A DNA stretch of 64,000 nt, taken from Pyropia yezoensis. Taxonomy: Eukaryota; Rhodophyta; Bangiophyceae; Bangiales; Bangiaceae. Each line of letters starts with the position of its first letter. Positions within the stretch are counted from its first letter, which is position 1. This document shows, in pieces, positions 32,601 to 53,579 of this stretch. The stretch lies in assembly GCA_009829735.1 (NCBI GenBank), contig CM020618.1:39857030-39921029 (forward strand). The letters run 5' to 3'. The position numbers and the translations under genes are program-made. The notes beneath the pieces were generated by a model, which had not been told where the DNA came from, made no database searches, and worked only from the letters and a program-made list of their open reading frames with translations.

Positions 32601-32714
32601 TTGATACATGTGCTGTGCCCTTGGCGAGATACCCTTGACTTGATCAGACCTGCTTTACAGTGCGAACGACGCTCGTTGCGACCGTCGCGCGGTCGCGATC
32701 CTCCCACATATATC
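29668..32714. other. AT-richer intergenic DNA, no recognised gene
   Basis: Short frames only; nothing with a recognisable domain or convincing splice structure was found up to the left end of the large TIR element. Confidence 0.4.
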
Positions 32715-32754
32715 GTCGGGAAAACGTACCACTCGTACTGGGGCTTACTGGGGC
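32715..32754 (+). repeat. Left terminal inverted repeat of the large element
   Basis: 40 bp, inverse of 50293-50332 with one mismatch. Followed by further GTACTGGGGC repeats to about 32765. Confidence 0.9.
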
Positions 32755-33309
32755 GTACTGGGGCTCAGATCGTGTGCTGAGCTCCCCCATCAGCACGGGC
32801 GTGGTGCTGGCGTGCTGAAATTGTGGGCGAATGCGTGCCGAGTCCATAGGAAGGTGGGCTACTACTCTCCGGGCTCTCAGATCCTGGCCGAGACCCGTCT
32901 GTTGGCAGTCAAAGAGCGGGCTACAAGTGGTGGACACAGCAGGAATTTGAGTGCCAGAGGAGAAATCACCGCTGCGCCTGACCCGTCTGTCACACTTCGC
33001 AGCACACACGTGGGCCGCGCCGATCCAGAGCCTTCCCTCCGTGCACTGCGTAGATTTGCCTGTCGCCGACAGCAGGACTTGTCACGCGTCGACGACGCGA
33101 TCCGCTGTGAACCAGCTCGGGAGGGTGGTCTTGGCCAACGGGGCATCCTTCGCTCGTTGCGTGGTGCCTTTCCCCTCTCGCGGGCCCGTTCCCGAAACCC
33201 CCCTCCCCTACTCGCAGCCCCGCCCCCCGGCGCGGCGCTCTGGACGAGCCCAGGCACGAGGGCCCGTCACCCGCACGGGGCCCACCCCGACCACCCCTTG
33301 CATGCCAGC

Positions 33310-34625
33310 AAGCATTCCCGTATTCCTGGCGGGGGCGGCCGCCACAACCCCGCGCCTGCCGCCGGCCGTGACCCCGCTGCTGGCCACGGCCGCCGCCACG
33401 ACTACCACCGTCTTTTTGTCGCCGTCGGTGACCTCCCCGCTGGCCGCGGCGGCGGCCACGGCCACAACGCTCTTTAGAGCACCGGCGGTATCCCCCGTGC
33501 TGGTCGGGACGGCCGCCACCTCCACCACGTACCCCTGGCACCGGCTGTGACCCCCCTGCTGGCCGCGACTGCGTGTAGCAATATGGTCGGCCGTATTGTG
33601 ACCCTAATATTAGGGGGGCTACTTCTAATCCTTGGCTTTCAATTTGAGAGTCCGTACTGGTCACGGTATCTATAAGTTACGTATGACCAGAGGGACTTGC
33701 ATCTTGGGGTGGAGGGTAGTTAGTAGTGTCTCCGAGGGTTTATAACGAGGGGGCCGGCGGCGAATCCACCGCCGGCCAAGGCAGAACAACAAACCCCGCC
33801 CACTTGGGCTCCCATATTGGTCCCGTGGCTTGCGCTCCAAGGACAGCAAGCTTGGCCTCCCGGTGACGTTGGTGCCGATCCCCCGTGAAGAGTGTTCCCT
33901 GAGAGTGGATGTGTAGCGGATACCCTATTGTGCTACACTGCGGCCACGACGACCACCCTCTTCATGTCGCCGGCGGTCATCCCCCTTGCTTGCGGCGAGC
34001 GGCGCCACCACCACCACGCTCTCCTTGGCCCCGGCAGCAACCCTCTTGTTGGTGGGGGGCGGCCGCCACCACCACCACGTCTCCACCGCCGGCGGTCGCC
34101 CCCCTTACTGGCGGCGAGCGGCGCCACCACCACCACGCTCTCCTTGGCGCCGGCGGCCACCCTCTTGCTGGTAGGGGCGGCCGCCACCACCACCACGTGC
34201 CTGCCGCCGGCGGTCGCCCCCCTTACTGACGGCGAGCGGCGCCACCACCACCACGCTCTCCTTGGCGCCGGCGGCCACCCTCTTGCTGGTAGGGGCGGCC
34301 GCCACCACCACCACGTGCCTGCCGCCGGCGGTCGCCCCCCTTACTGGCGGCGAGCGGCGCCACCACCACCACACTCCCCTTGGCGCCGGCGGCCACCCTC
34401 TTGCTGGTAGGGGCGGCCGCTACCACCACCACGTGCCTGCCGCCGGCGGGCACTTTTATTCTGGCCGCGGCGGCAGCCACGACCACTACCCTCTTGTTGT
34501 CGCTGCCGGTGACTTTTCTGCTGACCGCCGCGGCGGCCACGACCACCACCATTTTTTTGGCGCCGGCGGTGACCCCTTTTGCTGGCGGCGGGGGCAGCCA
34601 CCGCCATCCTTTTCTTGTCGCCGGC
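33310..34625. repeat. 57-60-bp minisatellite, interrupted by a solo LTR
   Basis: About 15 units of 57-60 bp, each containing a run of the type GCCGCCACCACCACCAC followed by a GCCGGCGG-type junction. In the middle the units alternate between two types, giving a 117-120-bp higher-order period (34085-34445). In the + direction a unit reads as about 20 residues with a TTTT core and a Val/Pro/Leu-rich remainder. Several frames stay open, so the strand, and whether it is translated at all, cannot be decided. Confidence 0.8.
33574..33937. mobile_element. Solo LTR (364 bp) with 5-bp target duplication
   Basis: Begins TGTAGCAATA and ends TATTGTGCTACA. CTGCG flanks both sides (33569-33573 and 33938-33942), inside one minisatellite unit. 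A TATA-like TTTATAAC lies at about 33739. No internal region, so it is the residue of LTR-LTR recombination. It belongs to a different family from the 469-bp LTRs. Confidence 0.88.
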
Positions 34626-34757
34626 GGCCACCCCCGTACTGGCTGCGCCCCCCACCGGCCACCGCGCTACCCCGACGCGCCGACTACGAGCCGCCACTCT
34701 ACTGGTGGCTCCCCTCATCACGACAACTACGTCAAAGACCTCGCCACGAGAGCACTT

Positions 34758-37700
34758 TTACGAAGAGTCTTCCTCGCTTTCAGCACCATCCATAGCTCTT
34801 GTCCCTTGCGCAGCGAAGCAGTTCACAAAAAATCTTGCAGCGCAGAGCTCCTCGCTTGTATTTGGCACCTCGTCCGGCATGACTGTGATCCCGTGCCGTG
34901 TGCTGAGGTCCTCCCAGTCATGCTCCACTACCAGGTAGCTGACGATGTCCTGCTGGCTCAGTACATCCAGGGAAGCAGCGTTCCCACCGGGGGTGACGTC
35001 CCACCGCAGGCGCTCGCACCCGTACTGCGTCAGCACGCAACCAGGGTCGGCTGCGGCTTTCGTTGCTCGTCGTACCATCAGTCGCTGACACGTGCCCGTG
35101 CGGTTGCACAGGACCAGGGCAGCTTGCCAAACCCGTAGCTCTCTGTCTTCCGCCCGATAGCGGACCCAGTCGAACCATGATGATCCGTGAAAACACGGAG
35201 ACGCCCGGATGGTGTACTGCGACCTACCGTGTAGTACAGGCGCAGTACCGAAGTACATACTGGAACGGGGACAAACCATGACGGTGTCCTCACAGCCAAG
35301 TGCGCTCGCGAGACCCGGAAGGTTGCGGCTGGCAGCCAGCCAGGCGACCGACCGCTTCCTAGTGTATCGGTGCCGCACCCGGCGACCTCCACCACGTGGT
35401 TGGTGGGGCACGCTTTGTGGAGGGGGCGACCGCGACTCGGCGCCGCCGTCGTCGCTTCTTTCCGAGCACCGGGAGTCATCGTTCTCTTCCAGGAGGGCGG
35501 CGTGCACCTGCTCTTTGACGATCAGCTGCTCAACAAACTGGTCCCTTCTCTTGTTTGTAGTTCGGTATGCCGCCTTCACAGCTTTGTGAAGCGACTCGTT
35601 AAACGCACTGTCGCCGTCTAACACGTTACGTCGCAGGCGAAACTCGTCCAGTAAGTGTGCCGACACGAGATGGAGCTTAGTCGTATGAGCAGGACCCAGT
35701 ACAGGCTGAAAGTGGTCAACCACCCACTCGTGTGCCTTCTTTGCCAGTAGAGCAGCCTCATTCAAGGTGACGCCTTGACTACCGGGGCCACTTGCAGCGA
35801 AAAGAGAGTTGGTCAGCGCGACCAACTCACAGACGCACTGCAATACTGCGCGGTGCTCGTCGCCTTCACCAACAGGACCGACGACGCCCGCTACAGCAAA
35901 CGGCAGGTACGGCAAGGCACGACGGTGCTCACTCCCAGTAAGGGTTGCCTGCTTGACCGTCTCGAGGACGAAGTACCCTGGGTAGACGTAAGGAACACGC
36001 AGGCGGCGCGATGCGTACTTGAAGCGTAGGTTCATGGCTCGCTCTGTGTTGGTGACGCTGTCGAACCGCGCGCGCCCTCCTTCGCCTGCTACTCTTCTCA
36101 GCGTCACTGGTACGCTGTTGGCGACCTTCCTACTTACACCGGTTTCCATCACCTGGGAGATGAATCGGCAGAGCGCAGAGCGTAGGCACAGTACAGAAAC
36201 ACGTCCAGCATGAACCGGTCAGTACGTCACCCATGTACAGGGCCATACTGAGCACGAAGCAAAAACATGGAGCACGGTGCACCCCAGTAGCGATGAGGGA
36301 CACGTTCTCAAGGCAACGTACATGTAAGCGGTCAAACCCAGGTATACGGTACAGCTTGCGTGGGCCATTGCCGAGGCCGGCCCAGGACGCTAAAGCGGGT
36401 ACAGTGCTGTTGAGACTGTGCTCCAGCTCCACCTCGGCTCGCCTCGCATGCGACCCCCAGTACGTCCCCATCGTGGAATTGCGCAGCTGAGCCCCAACAG
36501 TCTTGTCGACATCGCGAGCCGGGGCCGTCGCACCGGCTGCCGAGCATGAGTCGTCCCGTGACACCTTGCATGGTGTACATGGGTAAAGACAGCCCGCTGC
36601 CTTGAGGCACATTACCGCCCGCTCTTCTGGCTGGTCACAGACGTACAGGAGCACCCGAGGAGACACCCGTACGCGGCCGCCGTCAGAAAGATCCATTCAC
36701 GCCCCCTTGTGGCTGGCCTGGATTGCAGTACGAAAAGTCAGGTGCAGTACACGCTGCAGTAGCTCCGCCCGCACCTCTTGCCCCTTTCGAGCCTCCAGGA
36801 ACTTTCCCGCCACCTGAGGGATGTAGGCGATGGTGACCCAGCTCTCTTTGGCACTACTGGTATTCAGCACACGCATGCGCAGAGAGTACGCAGACACTGC
36901 GCCGCTGCTGGACAACACCGTTGCATCCGAGTAGACATGGAGTGCAAGGACGCGGTTACCGGTCCGCATGGTACCAAGGACGTGTGCCTTCTGCTCCTTG
37001 TACATCTCCCCATCCCACGGACCCCGCAGTAATGACGGCTGGGCCCCCTCAGTACCGTTGTCCATCTCGGGCGCGTCGGCGGGGGGAGTGTCCCAGCACA
37101 TGTCCTGAGGATCAGTACGCATCAGCTCGTCTTGGGCAGCGGCTAAAGCGTCACGGAAGCACACTGCGTACTTGCGCCCGTCCACAGTCAATTTCACCTT
37201 CTGCCAATTCAATGGGGCGATGAGAGCGCGCTTGAAGCGCCGTACTGCAGCAATGAACCAGTTCAGGGAGCGAAACGTTTCCGTGAACTGCACCCTGGCA
37301 GCGCCGGTGGCCGCCTCCACCTTCCTCGTGTACGCGTACTGCCTCTTCAGGCCCTTTTGAGACAGCCCGAAACCGTTGCTGGCAGTACACGCATTCACGA
37401 AGACGTGCCACAGGCCATCCTTGGTCCAAGGCGTCCTACCTTCGGAGCCGCCTCCCCCGCTAGGCGGAACACAAAAAGCAGTCGTGGCGCGCGCGGCATA
37501 CCCGTACCGCTCGTAGAGGTTGTGGACCTGAGTACACAGGTCACGGTCACGACTCAGAGCCGATGCTGGCTGTGGCTCCGACCCTCGCCCTCCACCACCC
37601 GCACGAGCATCGTCGGTAGCAGACCAGGGGGAATCTCCAGCTGCAGCTGCACTGGAATATTCATCGTCCCCAGCGCCAGTACCGGAGTCCGTGTCGTGCG

Positions 37701-38091
37701 CAAGCCTCCTACCCCGCCGACGCGTTTTGCGCGGGTACCCGTGGCCAGCACGGCGGGCCCGTCGCGCGCGGTCAGACGGCGCGCGCTTCCGAGAGCTGCC
37801 TCTTCGAGGAGATTTTAAGGGTCTGGTAACTGCTCGAGATAGCTCCAGGAAAACAGGCGACTCCAGCCCAATCACATCTCTAACACGCTCCCCTGAACCT
37901 CTTCCCGCGCTGCTCTCCCGCGTGCCCTCATTCCTCGCCTCGTACTCGTCACCAGACTCAATGCAGACGGTATTGAAGGCAGGCAGGACGGGGTCACGCA
38001 GTTGGTTGTGCATTGCTCTGACATGTCGCGTCTCGCCCAATGCACTGTTCAACACACGACCGCAGCCGGGTACTCGGCATACGACACCCAT
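34758..38091 (-). pseudogene. Plavaka/CACTA-like transposase with one in-frame stop and one frame change
   Basis: The start at 38091 opens with a zinc-finger pattern (CRVPGC...RHVRAMH). A basic, Ser-rich region follows, then a transposase core. ALHVYSDATVLSSSGAVSAY carries the Asp typical of Plavaka-type proteins, and WVTIAYIPQVAGK follows. After an in-frame TGA at 36697-36699 the match continues without loss: SPRVLLYVCDQPEERAVMCL and C/CxxC residues (CLYPCTPC), then FDRLHVRCLENV. A frame change at about 36130-36152 (indel or intron; GTAAGT is present) leads to the C-terminal part with LLDEFRLRRNV, FNESLHKAVKAAYRTTNK and an acidic end at 34758. The damage is slight, so inactivation looks recent unless the stop is read through. 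Confidence 0.65.
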
Positions 38092-38902
38092 GATCCAACC
38101 CCGCGGACGCGACCACGACCGAGTGCAGTGAGGTGACCGCGAAGCGCAGAGAACGTCGGGGCGAAGAGGACGACGACGGTCCCAGATACCCGGCGGACCA
38201 GTACCACGGGGCGTCCGATTGAACCAGGTTCGTTTTTGAACTTTTTGAATTGAAAGTAGCCCAGGTTCACGCCTTCCTCGAAGGCGGCTTACTGGCTGGC
38301 ACACGAGGAGGCACCGTGCTGACGCGATTGGACACGCGACGGTACGCTGTGCACCACGCAGATGTCCCCAAAGTCTGGCACAGGGCTGTGCAAGGGTACC
38401 GGCCCAAGGGTACCACAAGTGTATGATATCAAGCGTATCAGCGATACACTTGGCGAAATCAGGAACTCTCCATAGATACACTTTTGCAAGTGTATTGCGT
38501 ATTCAAGTGTATACGCGATACACTTGGCTCCGAACTTCAAGGGTATCCAAAGGTACCGAGCAAGTAGCCCCAGCTGTTTGAAATCGCTGCCACCTGACCA
38601 ATCAGCAGTCTTGCTTTTCAAACGAGTGCCATCGGCTTGACCTCCGTGGCGATGCACGTGCCAGCAGGGGGCCTGCGCGCAGCACATCAGCCCGTTGTCC
38701 GTTTCCTGCGCACGCGTCGCGCACGCTAAATTGTTCTGGAACCGCATACTACACGGTCCACCCGCTCGCTCACGCGACACTCACCGGCCCTGCAACCTGT
38801 CCACAGCACACGCGCCTACCTGCTGTTCACGCATACTACTCCACCCCCCCTGGCTGTGATAGGCCGGACCCCTTCTCTCTGGGACGCTCTTCTCGCTCAA
38901 CC

Positions 38903-41437
38903 ATGGCAGAAACCGGTAACTCCGCAACCACATCTAATCTGCCGCCGTCGAGACGCGCAAGTGAGAGCTCGGCTGCTGGGAGCGATCTTGGTTCTAGCGC
39001 TGGTGGCATTCCGGAGAGCGGCCGAAAGCGCAAGGCCACAGAATCCCCGAGCGAGGATACTGTGGAAGCTATCATTGAAGCCGCAACCACCCAAGCACAA
39101 TTGACGCGACCGGATCAGCTCTCACGTGACGATGTTGCGTTTGTGTGGATCTCTCGGGATGGCCTGGCACGCAAAGTGCGCTCCTGTGCGTGGACGTTCT
39201 TTGAGGTGTACCTTGCCCAGGACGGCAGCGGCAGTCTGATGGGCTGGTGTCGTCTGTGTGCAGGCATGGGCACGACCAACACGCAGTTCATGCCCAAGGG
39301 AGCGATTGGTAACTCTGTCAAGCACTTTGAGAACACAGCAAACGGGGCGGGCGGGCAGGAGAGACGGCTTGTTCACTCGTGGGCAGCGCTGCTTCTTTGT
39401 CGGAATCCCACCGGGGGCAACCGCACAGAGCACGTGGTGGACGGCAGTATTTCCCGGTTTTTTACCGCGGACGTGCGTCCTCACCACCTCCGTTTTGTAC
39501 TGATGCAGGCCATGTCTTATTCCCCACAGGTACTGACGGAAAGCCCGTATCTCGAAGCGTTTGTGTCTGGTCTGTCGTCGTCTTACTCTACGCCCTCCCG
39601 CCACACCGTCACCCACCACCTGACAGAGATTTACTCGTACACGCTCACGGCCATCCGCGACCGATTGAAGGCCGTGAAGAACCAGTACAGTGGCCTCCCT
39701 TTTGCCCACGCTATGACTGACTTATGGTCGGAGATGCACAGCCGCAGGTCGTACGGGTCATTGGTGTTGCGCTTCGTCGACCCCAGTGCAACCACCATGG
39801 ATGCAGGACACCTTGGCGTCGCGTTATTCCGCGGCAGGCACACAAACGAGAATATCGTAGCGTGGGTCCGCACCCGGCTGCAGTACTATGGGCTGGAGAC
39901 GGACGACCTTGCATCCTCGACCACCAACTCGGGAGCGAATGTGCGCAAAGCAATGCGTCGCCTGCAGGCTCCGTGGCTCCCATGTATGGCCCACTCCATG
40001 CATAACGCCGTGCATACCGCGCTGGGCATCTCTGGCACGGCGTCTCTCGACGACTCGGATGAGCTGCCCTCTCCCGAGTCGACCTCGAGCCGCAACCCGG
40101 CAACGAAGCTGCTTCTATCTCGCACCCGCAAGCTATGGGGTCATCTTAACCACTCCGATCTCAGCATCAGTATCTACCGAGGCCTGGATGTCCAGGGAGA
40201 GACGGAGGCGCGCGAGGTCATCACCGAGGTGCCCACCAGGTGGAGCTCATTTTACCGCGCTCTGGCTCGCTTGTATACCTGTTACTTGGGCATGTGTGCC
40301 TATTTTGATGCAGAGGGAGTTAGCGCGAGCGTGCGTAAGCGACGGCTGTCAAGCACTGACTGGGACCGCATTCTGCAGCTCCTTGGTGTGCTGAAAGGCG
40401 CCATGGAGGTAACTATGAGGAGCGAGAGCGCCACTGACCCAATTTGTGTTTCCTTTGCGGCCGTCTGCTCCTATCGCCGTGCCATTTTTTCAGATTGCTT
40501 TGTTGTACCTTGTCCGCCTGGTCCTCCTTAGGCTGCTGGCAAACGTGATATGGACGCTTACTGCACGGCTGACCCAGGGGACCTGCTGATTGAGCTTGAC
40601 GACCGCCTCTACCGAGCAGAGCTGCTCTACTTCGAGGAAAGACCCGGAAGGGACGGTCTTTGTGCCGAGGCCAAGCAGGTCGTCAGCATCCTTCGAGAGC
40701 AGCTCGACATGCGTTTTTTTGACCAGCACGACATCTCGCGCAACCTGCTGAAGTCGACACCCGTACTGATGAGCACCGCTCTTTCGCCGTGCGGCTCCAA
40801 GCTAATCAAGGCCGTCGCAAAGATGATGGCCTTGGAGGGCATGAAGGAACAGGCCGTCTTGGACATTCGAGGTGTATGTCATCGCATTTTGGAACCAGCG
40901 ACAGCGCCGTTGATGAATGCTACCCCGCCGGCTGCTTGCGCGCCACGAACTCGTCGGGTGTACTCGGCGCTTCCTGAGTGGACGGACAACGAGGAGAGCC
41001 AGGGAAACAACGGGATAGCTGAGAGCACGAAGGCGACGCTGGCGAAGGCGCAGCCGGACGAGTGTATGCAGGCGATTGCGACCAGCAAGACGAAAGACCC
41101 GATGGAGTACTGGAAAGAGAACGAGGCCCGCTTCTCGTCTATGTATCCGGTGGCGTGCGCGGCGTTAGGCGCCTCGGCCAGCTCGGCCGCATCCGAGCGC
41201 GACTTCTCTATTGCAGGCAACGTTGTGCGCAGGGAGCGGTCGGCCCTAATGCCGCGGCATGTGGAGATGCACACGCTGATCAAGGAGAATGCGCGCTTTC
41301 TCTCCAAGTCACTACACGAGGTGCCAAAGCTGATGCACGAGGCGGCTGTCAAGGTTTGCTCGGAGATTCCGCTTGGGCGCGCTTCAAGCGCTGCCAGCGA
41401 GCAGGCATCATCTTCCTCAGACGAGAGCGACGGATGA
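38903..41437 (+). pseudogene. hAT transposase, one in-frame TAG
   Basis: Starts at 38903 (CAACCATGG). The N-terminus is Ser-rich and disordered. A BED-finger-like region holds WCRLC; a core follows with LPFAHAMTDLWSEMHSRRSY and EVPTRWSSFYRALARL. A C-terminal hAT dimerisation block is clear (DPMEYWKENEARFSSMYPVA, then SSAASERDFSIAGNVV and RSALMPRHVE). A TAG at 40529-40531 lies in an unbroken frame. It is either a nonsense change or within a short intron; a 27-base GT...AG stretch at 40505-40531 keeps the frame but would be unusually small. An acidic Ser-rich tail ends at 41437. Confidence 0.85.
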
Positions 41438-41569
41438 TGAGGGTCGTGGGTTTTGCATTGCCTTGTTTCTGTGTGTCTGTTGGTACTCGAGTCGAGTAAG
41501 TGGCTGTGAGGGACACTGGATGGGGGTTTTTGGGGGTTGACGTGGCACCGCAGTTGAGGTGCAGCGGCT

Positions 41570-42388
41570 GTGGCGTTGACGTGCATGACCACATGTCAAC
41601 GCTTCGGTCGATCTCGACGGGCATCTTGGCTTGCCGTTGGGCACGTTCGTCAGCAAAGATCAGCGCCGTCGGGCGTACTTTGTTTTTTTGGAACTGCTCA
41701 CACGCGATCATCGCGGGATCTCAACCACTCGGACGAAATGGGCAGGGCAGCAGTTCTTTCCAGCTCCCCCAAGCGGTTGCGTTGTCCCACCGCCTGCGGC
41801 ACGCCGCCCCTCCGCCGGGCACCGCCGCCTTGAACTGCTGCCTCGCCTTTCAAACAACAGACTACGCGGCGCGGGGACGGTGGCGGACGTGGCGTTGGCG
41901 CTAATTGGCGCCACCTACCGGTCCGTCGGGGAAGTGCTGATGCTGACGGCTCCTGAGGAGGTGGTGGACCTGCCCAGCGGCAGTGGCAGCGGTGGAGATG
42001 TGGGGGGGGGTTGTTTGGCAAGGGCGGCAGCGGCGGAAGCGGCAGCAGCTGCAGCAGCAGCAGTGACCAGGCGCCCCACCCCACCACCTCCTCCTCCCCC
42101 CGCCGATCCACCGTCACCGCCACCACCACCGCCGCCGCCGTCGCCGCTGCCGCCGCCACCGCCACCGCCGATGGTCGTCGCCGCTGGCACCCTTCCTCCC
42201 TCGACCGGGGCGCTGTCGGCACCGCGACGCTCACGACCGCCGACGTGGGCGCGCTGACCGGTTTGGCCGTCACCCTCCGAGGACCCGCCGCACACGAGGG
42301 GTGGCGGATGGAGCGGGCGACGGTGTCCCTCGAAGAGGGGCGGGAGGTCCGCTGGGCCACCGCTGCCCCCATGGGGCTGTCCCGGTAG
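41570..42388 (+). pseudogene. Unrecognised cargo ORF inside the hAT element, two frames
   Basis: A + strand frame (from about 41630) reads VSKDQRRRAYFVFLELL, then VADVALALIGATYRSVGEV, and continues to a G8 run at about 42001-42008. Reading resumes in another frame to the stop at 42386-42388, ending ADVGALTGLAVTLRGPAAHE and WRMERATVSLEEG. That ending vaguely resembles the last strands of PLAT/LH2 domains; this is a weak suggestion. Gly/Ser/Pro low-complexity sequence separates the two parts. It could be a host gene fragment captured by the transposon. Confidence 0.3.
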
Positions 42389-43324
42389 GCGGGGTACTCG
42401 GCGGTGCTGCTAGTGCTCTTTGGGGGGGGGGTAGGGGGGGGGATTGGAGGGACCGTGGCTCCCCGTTTCTGTGAGGGGCTGCTGCCGCTGCTGCCGCTGC
42501 CGCTGCGGTGTCGACGGCTGCCACCATTACCATCACGAGCAGCCCTCCCACCACCTGCACCACCAGCGCCCGCTCGCCTCGTCGGGCGGGCGGTACGCCA
42601 TTGCAGGCGGCAGAGGCCCCGCCAGCCCGGACAGCCGCCGCGTTGCCGCCGCCGCTTCCGCCCCCGTCAGCGGTGGCACCAGTTGTAAGGCGGCCGCGAT
42701 GCTCTGCGCCCGCACCGGCACGGCGGCTCGCCCCCGCCACGCCTGCCGCGCGCAGGTCGTGCAAAACTGGTGGGGGGCTGCCGGAGGTACGCGGGGGGAC
42801 ACAGCGGCGGTGGCCGTGGCGGCGGCAGAGACGGCGGCGGCAGCGGTGGCGGCAGACAATATGACGGCCGCTGCCTCTACTGGGACAGCAAGGACGGGGA
42901 TGTGGCGGGGGATGACCGCGTGGAACCGAGGGCGCAGGCCGGAGGGGGCAGGAGTGGCGGGCATTCCCGCGCCTACCACCTGCACTGAAGACGGCGCCGA
43001 CGCCGACGCGGCCGACCACGCGCAGCCACTCGCGAGCGCGAGCAGCTTCTTTGAATTTTGTATATGCGGAACGCCACACAACTATCATTCATACCGTGCC
43101 CCTGAGGCCCTGTGGTCGACGGCCACCGAGGCCCAGCTGACAGACACTGCCGCAAAAGATGACGAGACCGCCAGGCAGCCCCGAAGCGACCCACAAGCCG
43201 CTGGACACGGGTCGTGGCAAGTGGTTCCTGTGCCACGAGCGCCTGCCCAGCAGGCTGCGTTACACCCAGGCGGCGCCGCCATCGACAGGGCGGCCAAACG
43301 TCAGCGACTGCGTGTCTACTGAGG
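42389..43324. other. GC-rich part of the hAT element without recognised gene
   Basis: Long overlapping frames exist on both strands (42444-43322 +, 42270-43088 -) but none shows a known motif. Ala/Pro/Arg-rich composition and poly-G runs (42421-42440) explain their openness. Confidence 0.4.
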
Positions 43325-43540
43325 GGTATTGATACACTTGGCCGTCGCAATCTGCCGATACACATGCCGATGTAGGGCACGTGCGTATACCCTTGATACA
43401 TACTTTCGCACTTGCCTTACAGCCGAATACACTTGACGGAACCACAGGCCACTGTCAGCTAGATACTCTGACCCAGTTGGTGCGGTCTCATACAGTACAC
43501 TTGGCCAAATCCGGTACCCTTGCACAGCCCTGGTCTGGCA

Positions 43541-44107
43541 CCCTCTGCGGCAACCCCGAAATCAGGATTCTTGGTGGGGTCTGCCTCACCGCGCGCCACG
43601 CCGAGCGGGCCCTGGACTGGCCCGTTCCTCTGTGTTGCAGCCCGGAATTGCCCACGTACCGGGCCACCAGGCGGGCCACCAGGTGGGCCCCGCGCCGGTG
43701 CAGGATGATGCACCCTTCCAAGGGGGTGCTGTGGTCCACCCGCTGGTAGACCCTGGGTGCTGTCCGCGACACAGGGCGCCGCCCGTGACAGCTCTCGCGG
43801 GCCGGCGTGCAGTACTGCCTTGTGCTGGCTCGCGAGCCACCTCTTCTTGGCCCGCCCCACCGCGCCATCTCCCCTCGTCCTCCCCCCCCCCCTCCCCCTC
43901 ACAACCACCCCCCCCTCACGCCCCCGCTGCCGACCACTGCCCTCCCCCCCCCCCCCCTCCCCCCCCCCCCCCCCGCCGCCCGCCCTCCTTTTTTCCTTCC
44001 CTCTCTCCCGCCGCCGCGCCCTCCCGTACCGCCTTGCCGCGTTTGCGTGGCCGTTCGCACGCCGCGTTGCAGGCATAAGCGCGCGTCAGGCCAAGTACGG
44101 TCGTCGC
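43541..44107. other. GC-rich stretch with long C runs, large element
   Basis: Dominated by poly-C at about 43882-43975. It may contain the promoter of the following repeat-protein gene. No recognised product. Confidence 0.4.
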
Positions 44108-46549
44108 ATGAGGAGCTCAGTGCCGTACGTACCGCCCGCACTGGGGCCAGCGATCGCTAGCTCCGTCAGGAACACAGCCGGTGGGCGGGCCGCTGGAGGC
44201 GCGCCCGCTGGTGGCGCCGGCGGCAACACCACCTACCCCGCCCCTGACGGCGACGCAGCCGGTCACGCCGTTGTCGGCGACGCGATTGGGCGCGTCGTCG
44301 TCGGCGGCGCGACCGGCCGCGCCGGGGACAACGCCGCGACCGACGACACCGGCGACGCCGAGCATCCTCGTCCTACGCGCGATCCCCTCGCGTCTCTATC
44401 TACCGAGCTGCACCCGGACGCAAGCACCACCCCGTGGGCCGTCGATCTGATGTCGGTCGTGGCGGCTGCTCCCGCAACCTGCTCTTGCGGGGCAAGAGCG
44501 ACTCGTCCTGGGAGAGCCTCACCTGACGTGGGAGAGTCGGGTGCGACCGGCACGGCGGGCGGCGCGATCGGCACAGCCGCCACGACGGGCAGTACGACGA
44601 ATGGTGACGCCAGCACGGCGGTAGGTGCCGCAAGCACGGTCGGTGCCGCCAGCACGGCAAGCGGTGCCGCCAGCCCGGTCGGTGGCGCCAGCACGGCGAG
44701 CGGTGCCGGCAGCATGGTCGCTGCTCCCTTTGAGGTCGGTGCCGCCAGTACGATCGGCGCCGCCAGCACGGCGGGCGGTGCCGGCAGCACGGTTGCTGCC
44801 GCAAGCACGGTGCGTGCGGCCAGTACGATCGGCGCCACCAGGACGGCGGGCGGTACCGGCAGCATGGTCGGTGCCGCCAGCACGGCGGGCGGTGCCGGCA
44901 GCGCGGTCGCTGCTGCCAGTAAGTTCGGTACCGCCAGTACGATCGGCGCCGCCAGCACGGCGGACGGTGCCAGCAGCACGGTTGCTGCCGCAAGCACGGT
45001 CGGTGCCGCCACCACGGCGGGCTGTGCCGCCAGGCCGATCGATGCCGCCAGCATGACGGGCGGTGCCGGCAGCACGGAGGGAGCAGCCAGCATGGTCGGT
45101 TCCGCCAGGACGGTCGGCGGTGCGAGCTGCCCGGTCGGTGCCGCCAGCACAGCGGGCGGTGCCGGCAGCACGGTCCGTGCCGCCAGTACGGACGGGGCCG
45201 GCAGCACGGCAGGCGGTGTTGCCCGCACGGCGGGCGGTGCCGCCAGCACGGCGAACGGTGCCGGCAGCACTGTGGCTGCCGCAAGCACGGTCGGTGCCGC
45301 GGGCACCGCGGGCGGTGCCGCCAGCAAGGCGGACGGTGCCGGCAGCACGGTGGCTTCCGCAAGCACGGTCGGTGCCGCGGGCACCGCGGGCGGTGCCGCC
45401 AGCACGGCGGACGGTGCCGCCAGCACGGTCGGGGCCGCCAACACGGCAGGAGGTGTTGCCCGTACGGCGGGCGGTGCGGCCAGCACGGCGGACGGTGCCG
45501 CCAGCACGGCGGCTGCCGCAAGCACGGTCGGTGCCGCCACCACGGCGGGCTGTGCCGCCAGGCCGATCGATGCCGCCAGCATGACGGGCGGTGCCGGCAG
45601 CACGGACGGAGCAGCCAGCACGGTCGGTTCCGCCAGGACGGCCGGCGGTACGAGCTGCCCGGTCGGTGCCACTGGCACAGCGGACGGTGCCGGCAGCACG
45701 GTCCGTGCCGCCAGTACGGACGGGGCCGGCAGCACGGCAGGCGGTGCTGCCCGCACGGCGGGCGGTGCCGGCAGCACGGCGGGCTGTGCAGTCAGCACGG
45801 CATGTGGTGCCGCCAGCACGGCGGACGGTGCCGCCTGCACGGCGGGCGGTGCCGCCAGTACGGCGGGCGGTGCCGCCAGCACGGCGGGCGGTGCCGCCAG
45901 CACGGCGGATGGTGCCGCCAGCACGGTCGGGGCCGCCAGCACGGCGGACGGTGCCGCCAGCACGGTCGGGGCCGCCAGCACGGCGGGCGGTGCCGCCAGC
46001 ACGGCGGGTGGTGCCGCCAGCACGGTCGGGGCCGCCAGCACGGCAGACGGTGCCGCCAGCACGGTCGGGGCCGCCAGCACGGCGGGCGGTGCCGCCAGCA
46101 CGGCGGGCGGTGCTGCCAGCACGGCGGGCGGTGCCGTCAGCACGGCGGGCGGTGCCGTCAGCACGGCGGGCGGTGCCGCCAGCACGGTCGGGGCCGCCAG
46201 CACGGCGGCCGGCGTTGTTAGCGCGGCGGATGTCGCCGGCGGCGCGGCCTGCACCGGAGCGAAAGTGGCCGCGGTCGGTGCTGCGGCGGGCGTGGTCGGC
46301 GCGTCGCTTGGAACGGTCCCTGCGGCGGGGGGTCTGGTTAGTGAGGTGGGGGAGGTATTGCACCAGGCCAACGAAGCTGTTGAGATGGTGGACGTGGAGC
46401 GCATGACACGGGCGAAAAAGCGCATTCGCTTTGTTCCTGGTCTGCAGCAAGCGTACGCTCTCCTCGCGGGCATGTGCCTTGTGGTATGGGGTGCGATCCT
46501 CCAGTGGCGTGGTGGGTCCGTGCGTGAGACTCCGTATGAGCCGTCCTGA
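44108..46549 (+). CDS. Gly/Ala/Ser/Thr pentad-repeat protein with C-terminal membrane segment
   Basis: About 813 residues from ATG 44108 (frame open further upstream). Residues 1-150 are Ala/Gly-rich but non-repetitive. From about residue 165 to 700 it is an array of GAAST-type units (GAASTAG, GAASTVG). The last 70 residues are unlike the array and protein-like: LVSEVGEVLHQANEAVEMV, MTRAKKRIRFVPGLQQ, then a hydrophobic stretch (AYALLAGMCLVVWGAIL) near the end. All six frames are open over the array because of the repeat. The + strand is chosen for the coherent C-terminus. No family recognised; a cell-wall or structural role cannot be shown. Confidence 0.5.
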   Translation: MRSSVPYVPPALGPAIASSVRNTAGGRAAGGAPAGGAGGNTTYPAPDGDAAGHAVVGDAIGRVVVGGATGRAGDNAATDDTGDAEHPRPTRDPLASLSTELHPDASTTPWAVDLMSVVAAAPATCSCGARATRPGRASPDVGESGATGTAGGAIGTAATTGSTTNGDASTAVGAASTVGAASTASGAASPVGGASTASGAGSMVAAPFEVGAASTIGAASTAGGAGSTVAAASTVRAASTIGATRTAGGTGSMVGAASTAGGAGSAVAAASKFGTASTIGAASTADGASSTVAAASTVGAATTAGCAARPIDAASMTGGAGSTEGAASMVGSARTVGGASCPVGAASTAGGAGSTVRAASTDGAGSTAGGVARTAGGAASTANGAGSTVAAASTVGAAGTAGGAASKADGAGSTVASASTVGAAGTAGGAASTADGAASTVGAANTAGGVARTAGGAASTADGAASTAAAASTVGAATTAGCAARPIDAASMTGGAGSTDGAASTVGSARTAGGTSCPVGATGTADGAGSTVRAASTDGAGSTAGGAARTAGGAGSTAGCAVSTACGAASTADGAACTAGGAASTAGGAASTAGGAASTADGAASTVGAASTADGAASTVGAASTAGGAASTAGGAASTVGAASTADGAASTVGAASTAGGAASTAGGAASTAGGAVSTAGGAVSTAGGAASTVGAASTAAGVVSAADVAGGAACTGAKVAAVGAAAGVVGASLGTVPAAGGLVSEVGEVLHQANEAVEMVDVERMTRAKKRIRFVPGLQQAYALLAGMCLVVWGAILQWRGGSVRETPYEPS
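44600..46210. repeat. 18/21-bp coding minisatellite
   Basis: Tandem units such as GGTGCCGCCAGCACGGCGGG alternate with 18-bp variants for about 1.6 kb. Larger duplicated blocks are also visible: the segment around 45000-45240 resembles 45520-45760. Confidence 0.85.
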
Positions 46550-46627
46550 CATGTTGTGCTGCCGTACTGCCCCTGGTGTTACGTGTATGTTCTTTTTGTG
46601 CTTCTGTTCACCACCGTACTGGGACTA

Positions 46628-47919
46628 ATGTCCTCTTTTCGTTTGCTTCTTTGTCGCGCACACCTTTCTCACAGTCAATCCAAGCTCTCGTTTTCCTGGC
46701 CCGGACGCAAGCTTCCCTCTGGTGGCTCCGGCTTGACCGAGCGCACGGGTCCGGCTGCCAGTACTGCTGAGGGCTCTGATTCACCACCCCCCGCCACCAC
46801 GACGCGAAAGAGGGTGCGTGAGCAGCTGACTGTTGCCGCAGCCAGGCAGCTAGGCAATGACCTGGTCTGGCGAGTGGCCGGCAAGGACGTTCCCGTCGCG
46901 CCCCCGCCCTGGAGCGTGGCGGGTGCGAGCGCCACTCTGGGCTTTGCGAGCACATCTCCGCTCACAATAGCTATGTCGCGGCTGTGGCTGCCCGCGGGGC
47001 AGTGGATGCCATCGCGGCAGCGGTGGAGGGCACGGACACACCACCCACTGAGGGGCAGAGGAGGTCGTCGGCCACGGCGTCGGCTCGTCGCCCCACCACT
47101 TCGCGACGCAGCAAGGCGGATGGTGTCAGTACGACACCGAAGCGCAAGGACGTCTCTTCTGCCGACGTCGGTGAAGCTGATGGAGCGCGGTCAGGCGAGG
47201 AGGAGCAGGCCAGGGCAGCTGACGCCCCCGAGGATGCCGTGGTGAATGTGGCAGGTCCCGCAGCTGCACCCAAGGACGACTACGTTGTGCCAACAGCGTG
47301 GCACAAGACGCTACCGCGCGTCAGTAAGAACAAGACACCGGCGGGCGAGCGGCGGCCCAGTATACAGGCGCTGCGCAGCTTCTTGACAAAGAAGACGCAC
47401 CGTGAACTACTGGCGCCCAGTACGATTGACGCGATGTATCTACCACGCTCATCTCATCTGTCGTTTTTCCGGGAGGTGGACATGTCGGCAGCCAAGGTCA
47501 ACGCCGAGGAGGCGGACAACCTTTTAAAGTCTACATTTGAAGTCCCCGCTGCCAACAGGAACGACAAGCCGAGCACGAAGGAGCTCAAGCCGTGGCTGGG
47601 GAAGGCGCTGAACAACGTGCATTTCAACCTGCGCAAGAGCATCATCAAGGCGTGGTCGGCGGCAGTGGACTACGACGGCACGAAGGAGCAGGCTCTTTCG
47701 TACCTGAAGGGGCGCGGCTACCTCAAGGGCCCTGTGGGTCGTCGCGGGTTTGTGGCGGCATTTCTGGCGGCGGTTGCGCAGTGCTCGGGAGACCCGCACG
47801 AGCACACCTTCCCAGACGGACCGGATAACGTGCTTCTGAATGCCGTACTGGTCACGCTGGCGTTTGTCCTCAGCAAGGTGAGCCTGTGGGAGGCGGTTTT
47901 GTACTGGGTGTCGGTCTAA
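46628..47919 (+). CDS. Unknown protein of the large element, possibly two exons or frameshifted
   Basis: A frame from ATG 46628 is basic and plausible (TTTRKRVREQLTVAAARQLG) to about 46.98 kb. The main open frame (from 46861, no early ATG) then continues to 47919. Its conserved-looking part is WHKTLPRVSKNKTP, RPSIQALRSFLTKKTHRELL, then FFREVDMSAAKVNAEEADNL and LKPWLGKALNNVHFNLRKSI. It ends hydrophobic (LNAVLVTLAFVLSKVSLWEA). The switch of frame between 46.86 and 46.98 kb needs an intron or indel; I could not place a convincing splice pair. No family recognised. A DNA-binding accessory factor is possible, since CACTA-type elements often have one, but this is inference. Confidence 0.45.
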
Positions 47920-47985
47920 TCGCGCTGTCGCATGCTGCGAGCTTGTACTGACTATTTACTTCTGTCTCATTGCCGCGCTGCTTGT

Positions 47986-49460
47986 ATGTCGTCTCGTGTA
48001 CTGTACTGCATTTTTGTTCTTTTTTGCGTCGCTGTGGTCCGTGCGGATGGCGTGCAGGTGCGCATGGGTCTGGAAGCTGACTGCATGGACCTGCTGCCTA
48101 GTGGCAAGCGTGCGAGCGAGACGATTTTGCACGGCGGGGTGCTGGTAGCTGGACGCAAGGTGTGGGCTGAGGAGCTCACATACCTTCATGTCTACGTGGA
48201 CGAGGCGGGCGACCACTGGGCGAGGCTGTTCAAAACAAATCAAGACGAGGACAACAGGGCAACTATCACCTCCCCCCCCCCACCAGTTACCTCCCGCTAC
48301 ACCCTTCCGGTTGACATAGACGTGCTGACCGACGATGAGCCCGTCTCCGACGCGGAGCTTCAAGCCCTCAAAGTGATGGTGCAGGAGTGGGTGGAGGCAA
48401 GGAAGTCCGTGGCGGAGGTGGTCGACTTGGACGCGGACGATGAGCCCCCTGCCGGCAACGAGAATGGGGCAGGGGGTGGGGGTCGTCGTACCGGCGCGCA
48501 GCCGGCCGCCGGCACCGGTGGCGGCCCTTCACCTACCGTTCGTACTGGAGCGCAGCAGGACGCCGGCACCAGCGGCGGCCCTCCACCGGCCGTTCGTACT
48601 GGAGCGCAGCAGGACGCCGGCACCGGCGGCCGCTCCTCGCATGTGGGTGGCGGCGGCACCGGTGTGCCGGCGGCGGGGGTCGGCGGCGGCGGCAGGGGCG
48701 GCCCGCCTACGGTCGGGGGCGACGGTCACGGCAGCGGCAGCGGCGTGCCGGCTTCGGGGGTGGGCGGCAGCGGCAGCGGCGGCCCGCCAGGGGCGGGGGT
48801 GGGCGGCAGCAGCAGCGGCAGCGGCGCGCCGGAGGGGGGATGGGCGGCAGCGGCAGTAGCGGCCCGCCGGGGGTGGGGGTGGGCGGAAGCAGCAGCGGCA
48901 GCAGCGCGCCGGAGGGGGGGATGGGCGGCAGCGGCAGCGGCGGCGGCGCGCCGGAGGGGGGAATGGGCGGCAGCGGCAGCAGCGGCCCGCCGGGGGTGGG
49001 GGTGGGCGGCAGCAGCAGCGGCAGCGGCGCGCCAGAAAGGGGTATTGGCGGCAGCAGCAGTGGCGGCGGCGCGCCGGAGGGGGGGATGGGCGGCAGCGTC
49101 AGCGGCAGCGGCATGCCGACGGTGGGGGCGAACTGTCACCGGTGCGGCTGCGGGTCGGCAGTGGGGGTGGGCGGCGGCGGCAGTGACGGCCCTCCGGCGG
49201 TAGGCGCCGGCGGGGAGGGCGGTGGTCGCGCGCTGGAGGTGGGCGTAGGCGGCAGCGTGGGGCACAGCCCTCCTGCACCGCCTCCTGATCGCCATCCTCT
49301 GTCTCCGGCGCCATCGGACGACGAGATTCAGCTGGTGCGGCGACGCAAGCAGCCGCTGTGGAGCCGGCGGCGCTCGTCGGGTAAGCGCGCTCGCGGGGGG
49401 AGTCTGGACGCGGACTCTCAGTTTTCTGCGGGGGACCTGGACGACAGCGCGTCGTCTTAG
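47986..49460 (+). CDS. Gly-rich repeat protein of the large element, frameshift at a G run
   Basis: ATG 47986 gives a hydrophobic start (MSSRVLYCIFVLFCVAVVRA) that could be a signal peptide; an upstream ATG at 47932 is also possible. A unique N-terminal domain follows (HGGVLVAGRKVWAEELTYLH, YVDEAGDHWARLF), then RTGAQQDAGT repeats. The rest is VGGSGSGGPPG / GAPEGG repeats. At about 48834-48841 a G6 run, where the next repeat has G7, shifts the frame. The repeat pattern continues perfectly in the other frame to a stop at 49460, with a basic end (RRRKQPLWSRRRSSGKRAR). Taking the shift as an indel, the protein is about 490 residues. No family recognised. Confidence 0.5.
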
Positions 49461-50292
49461 TGCCATATGCGCTGGCGTGCTTTGCTTTTTTCTTTTCTTT
49501 GCTTCTTATTTTTTTCCTGTGTTTTTCTATTTCTTCTTCGTCTTGCCTCTGGGGGCGCACTGGACTAGGTGAGGGGGTTAGGGGTGCGAGGGACGAGGTG
49601 AGGGGGGTGAGAGGCGTGAGGGACGAGGCGGTCGAGGCGGTGGGGTGGGGGCACCGGGAGGGGTGAGCATCCGGGTCGGGGTGCCCGTCCGCGTGCCCCT
49701 GGAGGTGCCCCTGGAGGTGCCCCTGGAGGTGCCCCTGGAGGTGCCCCTGGAGGTGCCCCTGGAGGTGCCCCTGGAGGTGCCCCTGGAGGTGCCCCTGGAG
49801 GTGCCCCTAGAGGTGCCCCCGGGGATCCAGAAATAGCTTTTTTTTTCTGCAACGTACTGCACGCAGACTGCGGAGCGTACCCGCGAGAGCCCGGTCGGAT
49901 ACCCCGGTACCAGAACGAGCCCCAGGGCAGTGCGTATCAGCACCACTGCGCTCAACGTAGACAACAAATGGCTGGACACGCTCCGTGACAGGGAGTAGAC
50001 ACGCTCTGGGCTGGAGGTGGTCGATAAGTAGCTGGATACAACTCCTTCCGGGGTCACAGCCTGGTCGTCTGTCGCGCTTGGGGGGTGCGCCATGTGCACA
50101 CACGCCCTCACAGAGCGGTCGTGGGCGCAGTGGATGCGCGTACTGCCTAAAACCGTGCGAATATGGGCATGTACTGAATTGGGTAGACACTGGGGAAAAC
50201 ACGTACTGCCAGAGCGATGCACACGTGCGAATATGTGTACTGCGGGTCATTTCACCCCAAATGAAATGAATCTAGGTCGGGGGGTGGTCACG
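49461..50292. other. 3' flank of the large element's genes
   Basis: Contains a pyrimidine-rich stretch after the last gene (49476-49545), the 12-bp tandem repeat below, and several GTACTG copies (for example near 49854, 50137, 50170, 50203, 50236). No gene recognised. Confidence 0.4.
49696..49820. repeat. 12-bp tandem repeat, about 10 copies
   Basis: CCTGGAGGTGCC repeated nearly perfectly. In minus frames it reads as a collagen-like Gly-Ala-Pro-Pro run, taken as an artefact of the repeat. Confidence 0.9.
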
Positions 50293-50332
50293 GCCCCAGT
50301 AAGCCTCAGTACGAGTGGTACGTTTTCCCGAC
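50293..50332 (-). repeat. Right terminal inverted repeat of the large element
   Basis: 40 bp, inverse of 32715-32754 with one mismatch. Confidence 0.9.
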
Positions 50333-51184
50333 AATGGCAAGGCGCCATATAACCTGAGCGCATATAACCGGATATTGACCAATTTCGGCACATCAGCGGA
50401 TGGGAACAAGTAACTTTCTTAATATCGGCCAGGAGTGCGTGTTTTCAAGCGCACTTCATTCTCCGGAGTCTGCTCTACTAGCGTGGTCTTGAAACAGCCA
50501 GCAGCGCACCAAAAGCGTCATTTGATGTACTTTCATTCTTTAAATGCCGAGAGCCGTCGTGGAGCTGATTTGATTATGTCTACGAGGGCTCCATGCGCAA
50601 GAGCACGAAGTAAATACCACTAAATAGGAGTGTTCGCCCGAGAGCGTGTCTGGGAAAAAGTCGCTCGAAGCCAGTCCTGCAGCGTCTTTTAAGACCACCA
50701 AAAGGAGCGTACGCGGACCTCGCTGTAAGAGCAAATGTGGAGGCCTACTATCTATAGAACTCTCATTCTATGTAAATATCTACTTGAGGTCAATCGAACG
50801 GCAGTTTTCCCAATTTTGTCCCTTGTGGACATGAGCAAGAACAAACCGCATGTAACCAATGATAAGCCTCAAATGAAGCCTGTCATGCCAATGACTGCTC
50901 TTCCTGAGTTGGGCAAGTGGTCGTGCGGTGGTCGTGCGGTGGTCGTCGGGTGGTCTTTTGGTAGTCGTGGGGTGGTCGTAGGGTGGTCGTCGGGTGGTCG
51001 TCCGGTGGCGCCAACCCCATCTGCTCCGCGCAGTGGAGCTAAAACCCTGTATCTTACATATCGTGATTTGGCGTGCACGCGACGTGTTTCTGCCCACGGG
51101 CCCAGCAATGTGGCTCCAGTGACCCTGTGAGGGCCGAGTTCTCTGTTCGCGCTCAATACGTCGTTTGCTATTGCTGGTTTCTGA
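50333..51184. other. AT-richer flank with a minisatellite, no gene
   Basis: An 11-bp repeat of the type TGGTCGTGCGG is present in about eight copies at 50918-51008. No coding sequence recognised. Confidence 0.5.
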
Positions 51185-52293: not shown

Positions 52294-53579
52294 CAGTGCC
52301 CTACCAAAAGTTTTTACCCACTTGGGCCACCACTCGACGAGACTGAAATCTGTCGCTATCAAATCGCCATTCTTACTAGTACTTCGTGGGGAAACCCTTG
52401 GCTTTGACAACTGCGGCCAGGCGTCTCGGCATAGAAGAGACAAGACCGGCGAAGTAAGATTGCGGGATAGCATCCCACACCCGCTGCAACGCCAGGAACA
52501 GCTCCTCCTTATCCTTAGGGGCGGGCTCAATCGCCCGGACGTGGCGCTCGAGGTAGTCCCAAGCGTTCTCCAGGCAGTTCAAGTCGGGGCTTTGAGGCAC
52601 CCACGGCAGGCAGCGCAGCCCCAGGTCCTGCCGCACCTGGCAGCTGGTACGAGCCATATGCGGGGGCGCCATGTCCTCCTGAAACAAGAAAGCGTTGGTA
52701 GACCCGAAGAGGCGGAGGAGATGTGGGTAGGCTTCAAACACCAGCATCTCCTGGTAGGCCGCGGCGTTCATCGACCCATCGATGAGCACCAATGGTGTGC
52801 GCCCACGGCTGCAGATGGCAGCCCATACCATCACGCTCCCCCTCCCAGACTTAAAGGTGGGCGAGAAGCACTCAGAAAGCCACTTTTCTCCCGAGCCGCG
52901 CCACACGCGAGCGTGCGTCCGAGGTCCGCGGACCTCAAACCGGCTCTCATCGGAGAAGACGACGCTGGTCCACTCGTCGGTCCAGTAAAGGCGGCGGCGC
53001 GCCCACGTCAGCTGCTTGCGCCGGTTTATTGGCCCGACATACGGCTTTGCCGCCGGCCGACGGGACGCAATGTCAGCTTCATGCAGGCGACGACGAAGTG
53101 TTGACAGTGACACCGGCTTGTGACACCCAGTGTTGTAGGCAGCTCGCAATTCGGCCAGGGTAGCGTAGCGCCCAGAGCGGACAATCCTCAGCAGGCGCCG
53201 CGAGCCTCGATCATCGACAAGCGGCGGCCTCCCGGAGCGAGTGGGGCGGGCAGTGTGGCCATTTCGGCGCACGCGCTTCGCAATATGGGCCACAATTGAC
53301 TTTTTGACGCCAACCTGGCGCGCCATAACCCCATTGGATAGCCCACGATGGGTCAGCTCCTCAATGGTGGTCCGCTCCGCCGCGGACACGCACCGGTAGC
53401 GCATCCCCATGGCGATCTTGTCGCAAAAAGGGGGGAGATTGGCTGACGCAGTAGCCGAAGGCCGAGAAGAAGGGCGGCACAATGCCCCGAAATGGCCGGG
53501 TTTATTGGACTTTGTGAATAGAGTCCGAGTGTAATCGCCTCAGATGCAGGAGTGGGTAAAAACTTTTGGGAGGGCACTG
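52294..53579 (-). mobile_element. Tc1 element, apparently intact (1,286 bp)
   Basis: 29-bp inverted ends, CAGTGCCCTACCAAAAGTTT at the left and CAGTGCCCTCCCAAAAGTTT (inverted) at the right, with one mismatch over 29 bp. TA flanks both sides (52292-52293 and 53580-53581). It encodes one complete transposase. Confidence 0.95.
52376..53410 (-). CDS. Tc1 transposase (DD34E)
   Basis: 344 residues from ATG 53410, the family length; an in-frame ATG at 53482 would add 24 residues. A helix-turn-helix is at residues 15-50 (LTHRGLSNGVMARQVGVKKS), a linker GRPP follows, then a second helix-turn-helix (VSLSTLRRRLHEADI). The catalytic domain has Asp in VVFSDESRFEV, Asp in LFQEDMAPPH and Glu in SPDLNCLENAWD. 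There are 34 residues between the second and third residues, as in canonical Tc1. The usual QDNAPPH reads QEDMAPPH, but the catalytic Asp is kept. No stop or frameshift, so it may be functional. Confidence 0.93.
   Translation of the reverse strand: MGMRYRCVSAAERTTIEELTHRGLSNGVMARQVGVKKSIVAHIAKRVRRNGHTARPTRSGRPPLVDDRGSRRLLRIVRSGRYATLAELRAAYNTGCHKPVSLSTLRRRLHEADIASRRPAAKPYVGPINRRKQLTWARRRLYWTDEWTSVVFSDESRFEVRGPRTHARVWRGSGEKWLSECFSPTFKSGRGSVMVWAAICSRGRTPLVLIDGSMNAAAYQEMLVFEAYPHLLRLFGSTNAFLFQEDMAPPHMARTSCQVRQDLGLRCLPWVPQSPDLNCLENAWDYLERHVRAIEPAPKDKEELFLALQRVWDAIPQSYFAGLVSSMPRRLAAVVKAKGFPTKY

Follow-up and report, generated by a model that had tools for sequence, protein, structure and literature searches.

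The stretch of Pyropia yezoensis DNA analysed here, 64,000 nucleotides long and called the window throughout, contains two 40-bp inverted repeats 17.6 kb apart. An earlier note on this stretch had taken them for the ends of an unusually large transposon with unknown genes. The region between the repeats very probably derives from a cut-and-paste transposon of the Plavaka lineage (CACTA/EnSpm-Mirage-Chapaev-Transib clade) that had two genes and has since decayed, the second gene (gene 2) acting as an element-encoded partner of the transposase. The element belongs to a multi-copy two-gene family; the copy in the window is decayed and inflated by nested insertions, and is not a giant cargo-bearing element. 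What had appeared as cargo resolves into an element gene split into exons, together with the nested insertions. These results establish that a red alga harbours a two-gene Plavaka lineage in multiple copies, whose second gene has been retained beside the transposase across deep divergence. The red-algal Plavaka lineage, its conserved second gene, its termini and its host are new as far as we searched, although the element is not categorically new; a literature search that did not extend to subscription journals and Repbase yielded no paper on red-algal Plavaka, as judged by title, or on this family.

The terminal inverted repeats (TIRs) of the window copy match at 39 of 40 positions in inverted orientation (32715–32754 against 50293–50332), as described in the earlier note, and the sequence of such TIRs is CGTCGGGAAAACGTACC. 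The terminal base beyond the 40-bp repeat is C on the left and A on the right (the complement of T), and the next two bases are AT on both sides. The ends and the target-site duplication (TSD) are as follows:

32714..32754, plus strand: left TIR, CGTCGGGAAAACGTACCACTCGTACTGGGGC..., terminal base included
50293..50333, minus strand: right TIR, terminal base included
32712..32713, no strand: left AT target-site duplication, outside the terminal base
50334..50335, no strand: right AT target-site duplication, outside the terminal base

The genome searched comprises 107.5 Mb in 11 contigs, three of them of chromosome size (C1, C2 and C3). With the left 201 bp as query there were 28 matches in the genome, and eight places match over 155–201 bp at 95–100% identity; the right 341 bp yielded 20 matches, and six places match over 336–341 bp at 95–100% (the window is included in all four counts). 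Because the same ends recur across the host genome, a chance origin of the TIRs in the window is excluded. Beyond the window copy (copy A), eight loci have one or both ends of the family, as pairs in B, C, K and L and as single ends in H, I, J and M. Inverted pairs of the kind that the earlier note had proposed to look for elsewhere in the assembly are therefore present, at comparable size in B and C and shorter in K and L, and locus G is bounded by an inverted pair of a diverged family:

C1:5,278,001-5,290,182: copy B, inverted TIR pair, 12.2 kb
C1:15,968,733-15,986,959: copy C, inverted TIR pair, 18.2 kb
C2:2,850,837-2,854,104: copy K, inverted TIR pair, 3.3 kb
C1:34,524,068-34,528,225: copy L, inverted TIR pair, 4.2 kb
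C1:38,761,727-38,802,058: locus G, inverted TIR pair of the diverged family, 40.3 kb

In the window's and related families, every one of the 27 distinct ends read has AT directly outside its terminal base, and C stands outside the AT at 20 of these 27, indicating a C-AT-G target preference; the 27 are the ends that were read, and the left- and right-end genome searches listed more. The joined flanks of A, B, K and L were also used as genome queries in a search for empty sites, and paralogous empty sites were found for two of these four copies, B and L. The three empty sites of copy B (C2:5,121,379, C2:14,811,392 and C3:9,146,032) read CCC-AT-GTC, compared to CCC-AT-element-AT-GTC at the filled site, and the three empty sites read for copy L have a single AC where L has AT. 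It follows from the comparison of empty and filled sites at B and L that the duplication is the 2-bp AT and that the element extends from CGTCGGG to CCCGACG. The 40-bp inverted repeats bound a genuine TIR transposon in the genome of this red alga, known as nori. It is vanishingly improbable that the TIRs of separate elements, resembling miniature inverted-repeat transposable elements (MITEs), flank unrelated genes by chance. Short deleted derivatives with the same ends (3.3 and 4.2 kb) do exist, as such an assembly would lead one to expect, but the deleted copies keep internal pieces of the same element, and the scenario is refuted by copy B, where these ends and genes recur in unchanged order at another locus that has an AT duplication and empty sites of its own.

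The minus-strand gene is, judging from its sequence, a spliced Plavaka transposase of the CACTA/RAG-like clade, so that the earlier note was right about the type of transposase, which is here recognized as a single spliced gene:

36322..38091, minus strand: transposase exon 1, with an N-terminal C2H2-like finger (by eye) and an in-frame stop at 36697-36699; borders from the similarity break and GT..AG
34758..36152, minus strand: transposase exon 2, with its stop at the low end and a splice site reading CAG, then GTGATGGA; borders from the similarity break and GT..AG

The two-exon structure is indicated by the similarity to diverged copies, which breaks at 36155/36316, and by the GT..AG sites. 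The first 815 of 1054 residues of the spliced transposase, with an X at its stop, match the Pfam domain PF18759 with an E-value of 5.8e-12 (45.9 bits, cut-off 26.3), compared to 0.013, under the cut-off, for the unspliced open reading frame (ORF) alone. PF18759 is found in 15 of 15 transposase relatives scanned, which were chosen out of 24 since PF18759 had already been noted for them. In PMC12730594, Plavaka is defined by two motifs located between the second D and the last E, C(2)C and H(3-4)H, and both are present here by eye (VCDQPEE..CTPC, then HLVSAH, then FNESLH). Damage to the transposase is also seen in copy B (a frameshift at the start of exon 2) and in H (stop codons). A genome search with the transposase, in which the best 88 of 320 candidates were scored, produced 96 matches. 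Many of the matches have 36–39% identity and recurring match coordinates; this pattern suggests that two further families are present, more distant than the window's family and richer in copies.

The earlier note had listed three long unrecognised genes on the plus strand. These three ORFs are more properly exons of one gene (44108–49460), because the end of the first and the other two are conserved in order in the diverged copy D:

44108..46452, plus strand: gene 2 exon 1, first ATG assumed, with a 21/39-bp AAST-coding minisatellite at 44603-46212 and the conserved end RIRFVPGLQQA
46675..47877, plus strand: gene 2 exon 2, conserved in D, with a conserved helical core of ~180 aa at its end and a frameshift in the window copy
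48058..49460, plus strand: gene 2 exon 3, conserved in D, with a conserved 130-aa domain, Gly/Ser-rich repeats, an acidic tail and, in the window copy, a frame change within the repeats

The end of exon 1 (RIRFVPGLQQA in A and similar in D), exon 2 and exon 3 follow each other in the same order in D, with splice-like borders. The minisatellite of the earlier note is real and lies at 44.6–46.2 kb, inside exon 1; the AAST minisatellite and the Gly/Ser repeats are the low-complexity portions of exons 1 and 3, respectively. In copy B the NCBI annotation splits the exon 2 and exon 3 parts into the hypothetical proteins I4F81_000511 (P0001) and 000512. Gene 2 gave no usable match in Pfam, PDB or fold searches, the fold searches being made with the predicted core of gene 2. 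With the stop codon in the transposase and the frame changes in gene 2, the window copy is unable to encode an intact version of either protein.

A genome search with gene 2 detected 14 pieces at nine places. At five of the nine (A, B, D, E and G) a transposase of the same clade is located less than 20 kb away and in the same relative orientation, and in C the transposase is deleted and gene 2 is present. Copies other than the window's that join the transposase with the plus-strand genes, as the earlier note's transposon would require, are thus found in B, which is a second full copy, and in the diverged loci D, E and G. The remaining gene 2 places (at C1:25.240, C1:3.036 and C1:35.866 Mb) contain stop codons and have no close transposase among the matches listed (best 88 of 320). 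A distant gene 2 relative used as query identified the same nine places and one weak piece inside G. The linked families are only 45% identical in gene 2 and 62% in the transposase, with order and orientation kept. Outside the assembly there are at least eight further gene 2 clusters beyond the two proteins of copy B (worst E-value 1.2e-61), three further clusters for exon 3, and at least 24 transposase clusters at E-values up to 0.001, including one from Pyropia vietnamensis and one from P. yezoensis; in the gene 2 and transposase cluster searches only the candidates with the most shared words were scored. Contigs of 11,427 bp are listed both for the gene 2 relative P0007 and for the transposase pieces P0013 and P0021.

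Comparison of copies B and D yielded dN/dS (ratio of nonsynonymous to synonymous substitution rates) of 0.22 for exon 2 of gene 2 (303 codons), 0.145 for exon 3 (128 codons) and 0.154 for the transposase (194 codons); dS lies between 1.15 and 2.7, at or close to saturation, and the values are therefore informative only in being similar. When A, B, C, H and I are compared with one another, dN/dS ranges from 0.43 to 1.03 with few changes, as expected of dead copies.

The earlier note saw the plus-strand genes as cargo, and gene 2 could in principle be a captured gene, of host or foreign origin, with no role in transposition. This is very unlikely. Gene 2 is a constant partner of the transposase in diverged loci, and its linkage in the same order and orientation at 45% and 62% identity, combined with similarly low dN/dS values, partly refutes a captured gene, as does the finding of no intact stand-alone gene 2 among the nine places, the three at which no transposon feature was read all carrying stop codons. 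The cargo interpretation draws on the lack of a known domain in gene 2 and on an observation that also weighs against our interpretation of gene 2 as part of the element: no gene 2 match lies near H, I, N and O. These are four of the nine places with the closest transposases (A, H, B, I, N, D, O, E and G), a count that excludes two short pieces of 55–56% identity at C1:33.909 and C1:25.853 Mb. Plavaka transposases of greater distance among the genome matches listed have no gene 2 nearby, which likewise weighs against our interpretation. The left end of D was not found in the stretch fetched, nor was any TIR in the stretch of E. Taken together, the sequence comparisons indicate that gene 2 belongs to the transposon and is not captured cargo.

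Copies C, K and L share a transposase deletion (window positions 33562 to 38318) that is filled by the same 130 bp; this filler is identical at 123–127 of 130 positions between pairs of the three copies and has no real match in the window. A second common deletion, within gene 2 (46826 to 49241), is found in K, L and M. Since internally deleted copies at different sites share their junctions, they appear to have been mobilised once the deletion existed, by proteins provided in trans.

Both ends of the element contain repeated subterminal motifs:

32736..32765, plus strand: three 10-bp direct repeats TACTGGGGCT at the left end
50140..50242, minus strand: right subterminal array of four CAGTAC (50140, 50171, 50203 and 50237), spaced 31–34 bp apart

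At the right end of the window copy CAGTAC occurs at offsets 91, 125, 157 and 188, and three or four of these motifs are kept in the other five right ends of the family. In the X15 family the corresponding offsets are 90, 123, 166 and 207. Of the five ends of the D family, three have CAGTAC at offset 91, one has it at 75 and one lacks it; GTACTG occurs at offset 121 in two ends and at 129 in one. TACTGGGGC repeats in the TIR and the left end, its inverse core being GTACTG. In seven right ends from three families CAGTAC occurs 15 times and TATTCG 13 times, which is 9.9 and 53.5 times the background of the window, respectively, an enrichment that is inflated by shared descent, as five of the seven ends come from one family. 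The three families with recurring motifs are 49–68% identical outside the TIR.

Subterminal arrays are bound by TNPA in CACTA elements (PMC2613891), and because the CAGTAC/TATTCG arrays resemble these TNPA-bound arrays, gene 2 is most likely a TNPA-like partner acting at the subterminal motifs. In this scenario the DDE transposase would cut at the CGTCGGG ends and insert into CATG-like sites, the gene 2 product would, like TNPA in En/Spm, bind or assemble on the repeated CAGTAC/TATTCG motifs, and the deleted derivatives would be acted on in trans by both proteins. More tentatively, and with somewhat more doubt than conviction, we speculate that the gene 2 product founds an undescribed family of partner proteins of red-algal Plavaka, which recognises the CAGTAC/TATTCG array at a spacing of about three helical turns and is required for excision, so that the TNPA role would have been invented independently in the clade from which RAG1 also arose. 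If gene 2 is indeed TNPA-like, the two-protein strategy would have arisen separately in another branch of the RAG1-related transposases.

A different function, which we consider rather unlikely, is that gene 2 counteracts host silencing or controls expression of the element in a TET/JBP-like role, instead of being a partner in synapsis or end binding. VANC-type proteins provide a comparison for an anti-silencing role. The subterminal array would suit an anti-silencing binder equally well, the low-complexity repeats and acidic tail fit a regulator, and TET/JBP genes carried by fungal Plavaka are presumed to have such a role (PMC12730594). However, domain searches detected no TET or other enzyme domain in gene 2, and the presence of gene 2 in the copies fits either role. 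A TNPA-like partner remains our preferred interpretation of gene 2. Neither the domain searches nor the structure searches pointed to a protein of the TNPA type, though gene 2 and TNPA were not compared directly.

The published systems are compared here as described in the cited papers. The element resembles the Plavaka elements of fungi (PMC12730594) in the PF18759 match over the curated cut-off, the CxxC and H-x4-H motifs that can be seen by eye beyond the second D, and the 2-bp AT duplication, which is fixed by the empty sites of B and L and falls within the 2–3 bp of Plavaka. It differs in its red-algal host, in a second gene without TET/JBP similarity, and in its termini, which are CGTCGGG..CCCGACG and neither TGT..ACA (PlavakaA) nor CATCA..TGATG (PlavakaB). 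Without the empty sites the ends in the window would read CATCG..CGATG, near the wording for PlavakaB. It is conceivable, if speculative, that the CAT in the published CATCA..TGATG (PMC12730594) is partly target sequence, as in the C-AT-G found here. CACTA/EnSpm elements with TNPD and TNPA (En/Spm, Tam1 and soybean Tgmt*; PMC2613891) are likewise large, encode a transposase and a second element-specific protein, contain asymmetric subterminal repeats and have deletion derivatives moved in trans, as we infer here, whereas the present element has no CAC/CACTA terminus, a 2-bp and not a 3-bp duplication, and a second gene that is separate and encoded on the other strand. In Amoebidium, likewise a eukaryote that is not a fungus, Plavaka-flanked giant repeats (PMC11244446) form large regions with a Plavaka transposase, but they consist of tandem repetitive-gene clusters of up to 50 kb with many tyrosine recombinases, in contrast to the two element genes found here.

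Two insertions account for the size of the window copy. Both are missing from copy B, and both are younger insertions into copy A, in agreement with the nested elements described in the earlier note:

38381..43532, plus strand: nested hAT transposon with 22-bp TIR CAGGGCTGTGCAAGGGTACCGG and 8-bp TSD GTCTGGCA (38373-38380 / 43533-43540), missing in B
33574..33937, no strand: nested solo long terminal repeat (LTR), TGTAGCA...TGCTACA, 364 bp, with 5-bp TSD CTGCG (33569-33573 / 33938-33942), missing in B

Subtraction of the insertions and their duplications leaves 17,620 − 5,160 − 369 = 12,091 bp, comparable to the 12.2 kb of copy B, and the main aligned segments of A and B are 94–98% identical. 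With a native size of ~12.1 kb, the argument that the element is unusual for its size fails. Its supposed likeness to giant cargo-bearing elements does not hold either, as no recombinase or known cargo domain was found among the 10 ORFs scanned. Starship-type elements of fungi are defined by a tyrosine-recombinase captain gene. The present element shares with them that it is a large mobile element with defined ends, but it has no tyrosine-recombinase match (Pfam, the same 10 ORFs), no variable cargo was seen, and its second gene is constant. Moreover, a CACTA element of 20.5 kb with two functions has been published (PMC2613891).

The nested hAT has a Dimer_Tnp_hAT match (5.8e-12) within 40532–41434; its long ORF has a stop at 40529–40531, beyond which the same reading frame extends to 41437. 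A MITE was also considered for the 364-bp insert at 33.6 kb but is ruled out by its TG..CA ends, its 5-bp TSD and the direct copies flanking an insertion in G. There, an 18.5-kb insertion within the transposase (C1:38,780,585-38,799,839) has this LTR sequence at either end, in direct orientation, suggesting a large LTR element in the P. yezoensis genome, and a further copy of the LTR borders a stretch of ~12 kb within copy C. The largest member seen is locus G, which is bounded by TIRs, contains both the transposase and gene 2, and has grown to 40.3 kb through nested insertions.

Two further minisatellites are present inside the element:

33943..34601, no strand: 60/118-bp minisatellite 3' of the transposase gene, also in B, H and I
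49693..49819, no strand: 12-bp minisatellite GTGCCCCTGGAG

Just beyond the element, a long open frame at 52376–53539 on the minus strand encodes a Tc1/mariner-like transposase with matches to HTH_Tnp_Tc3_2 (8e-13) and DDE_3 (1.9e-9).

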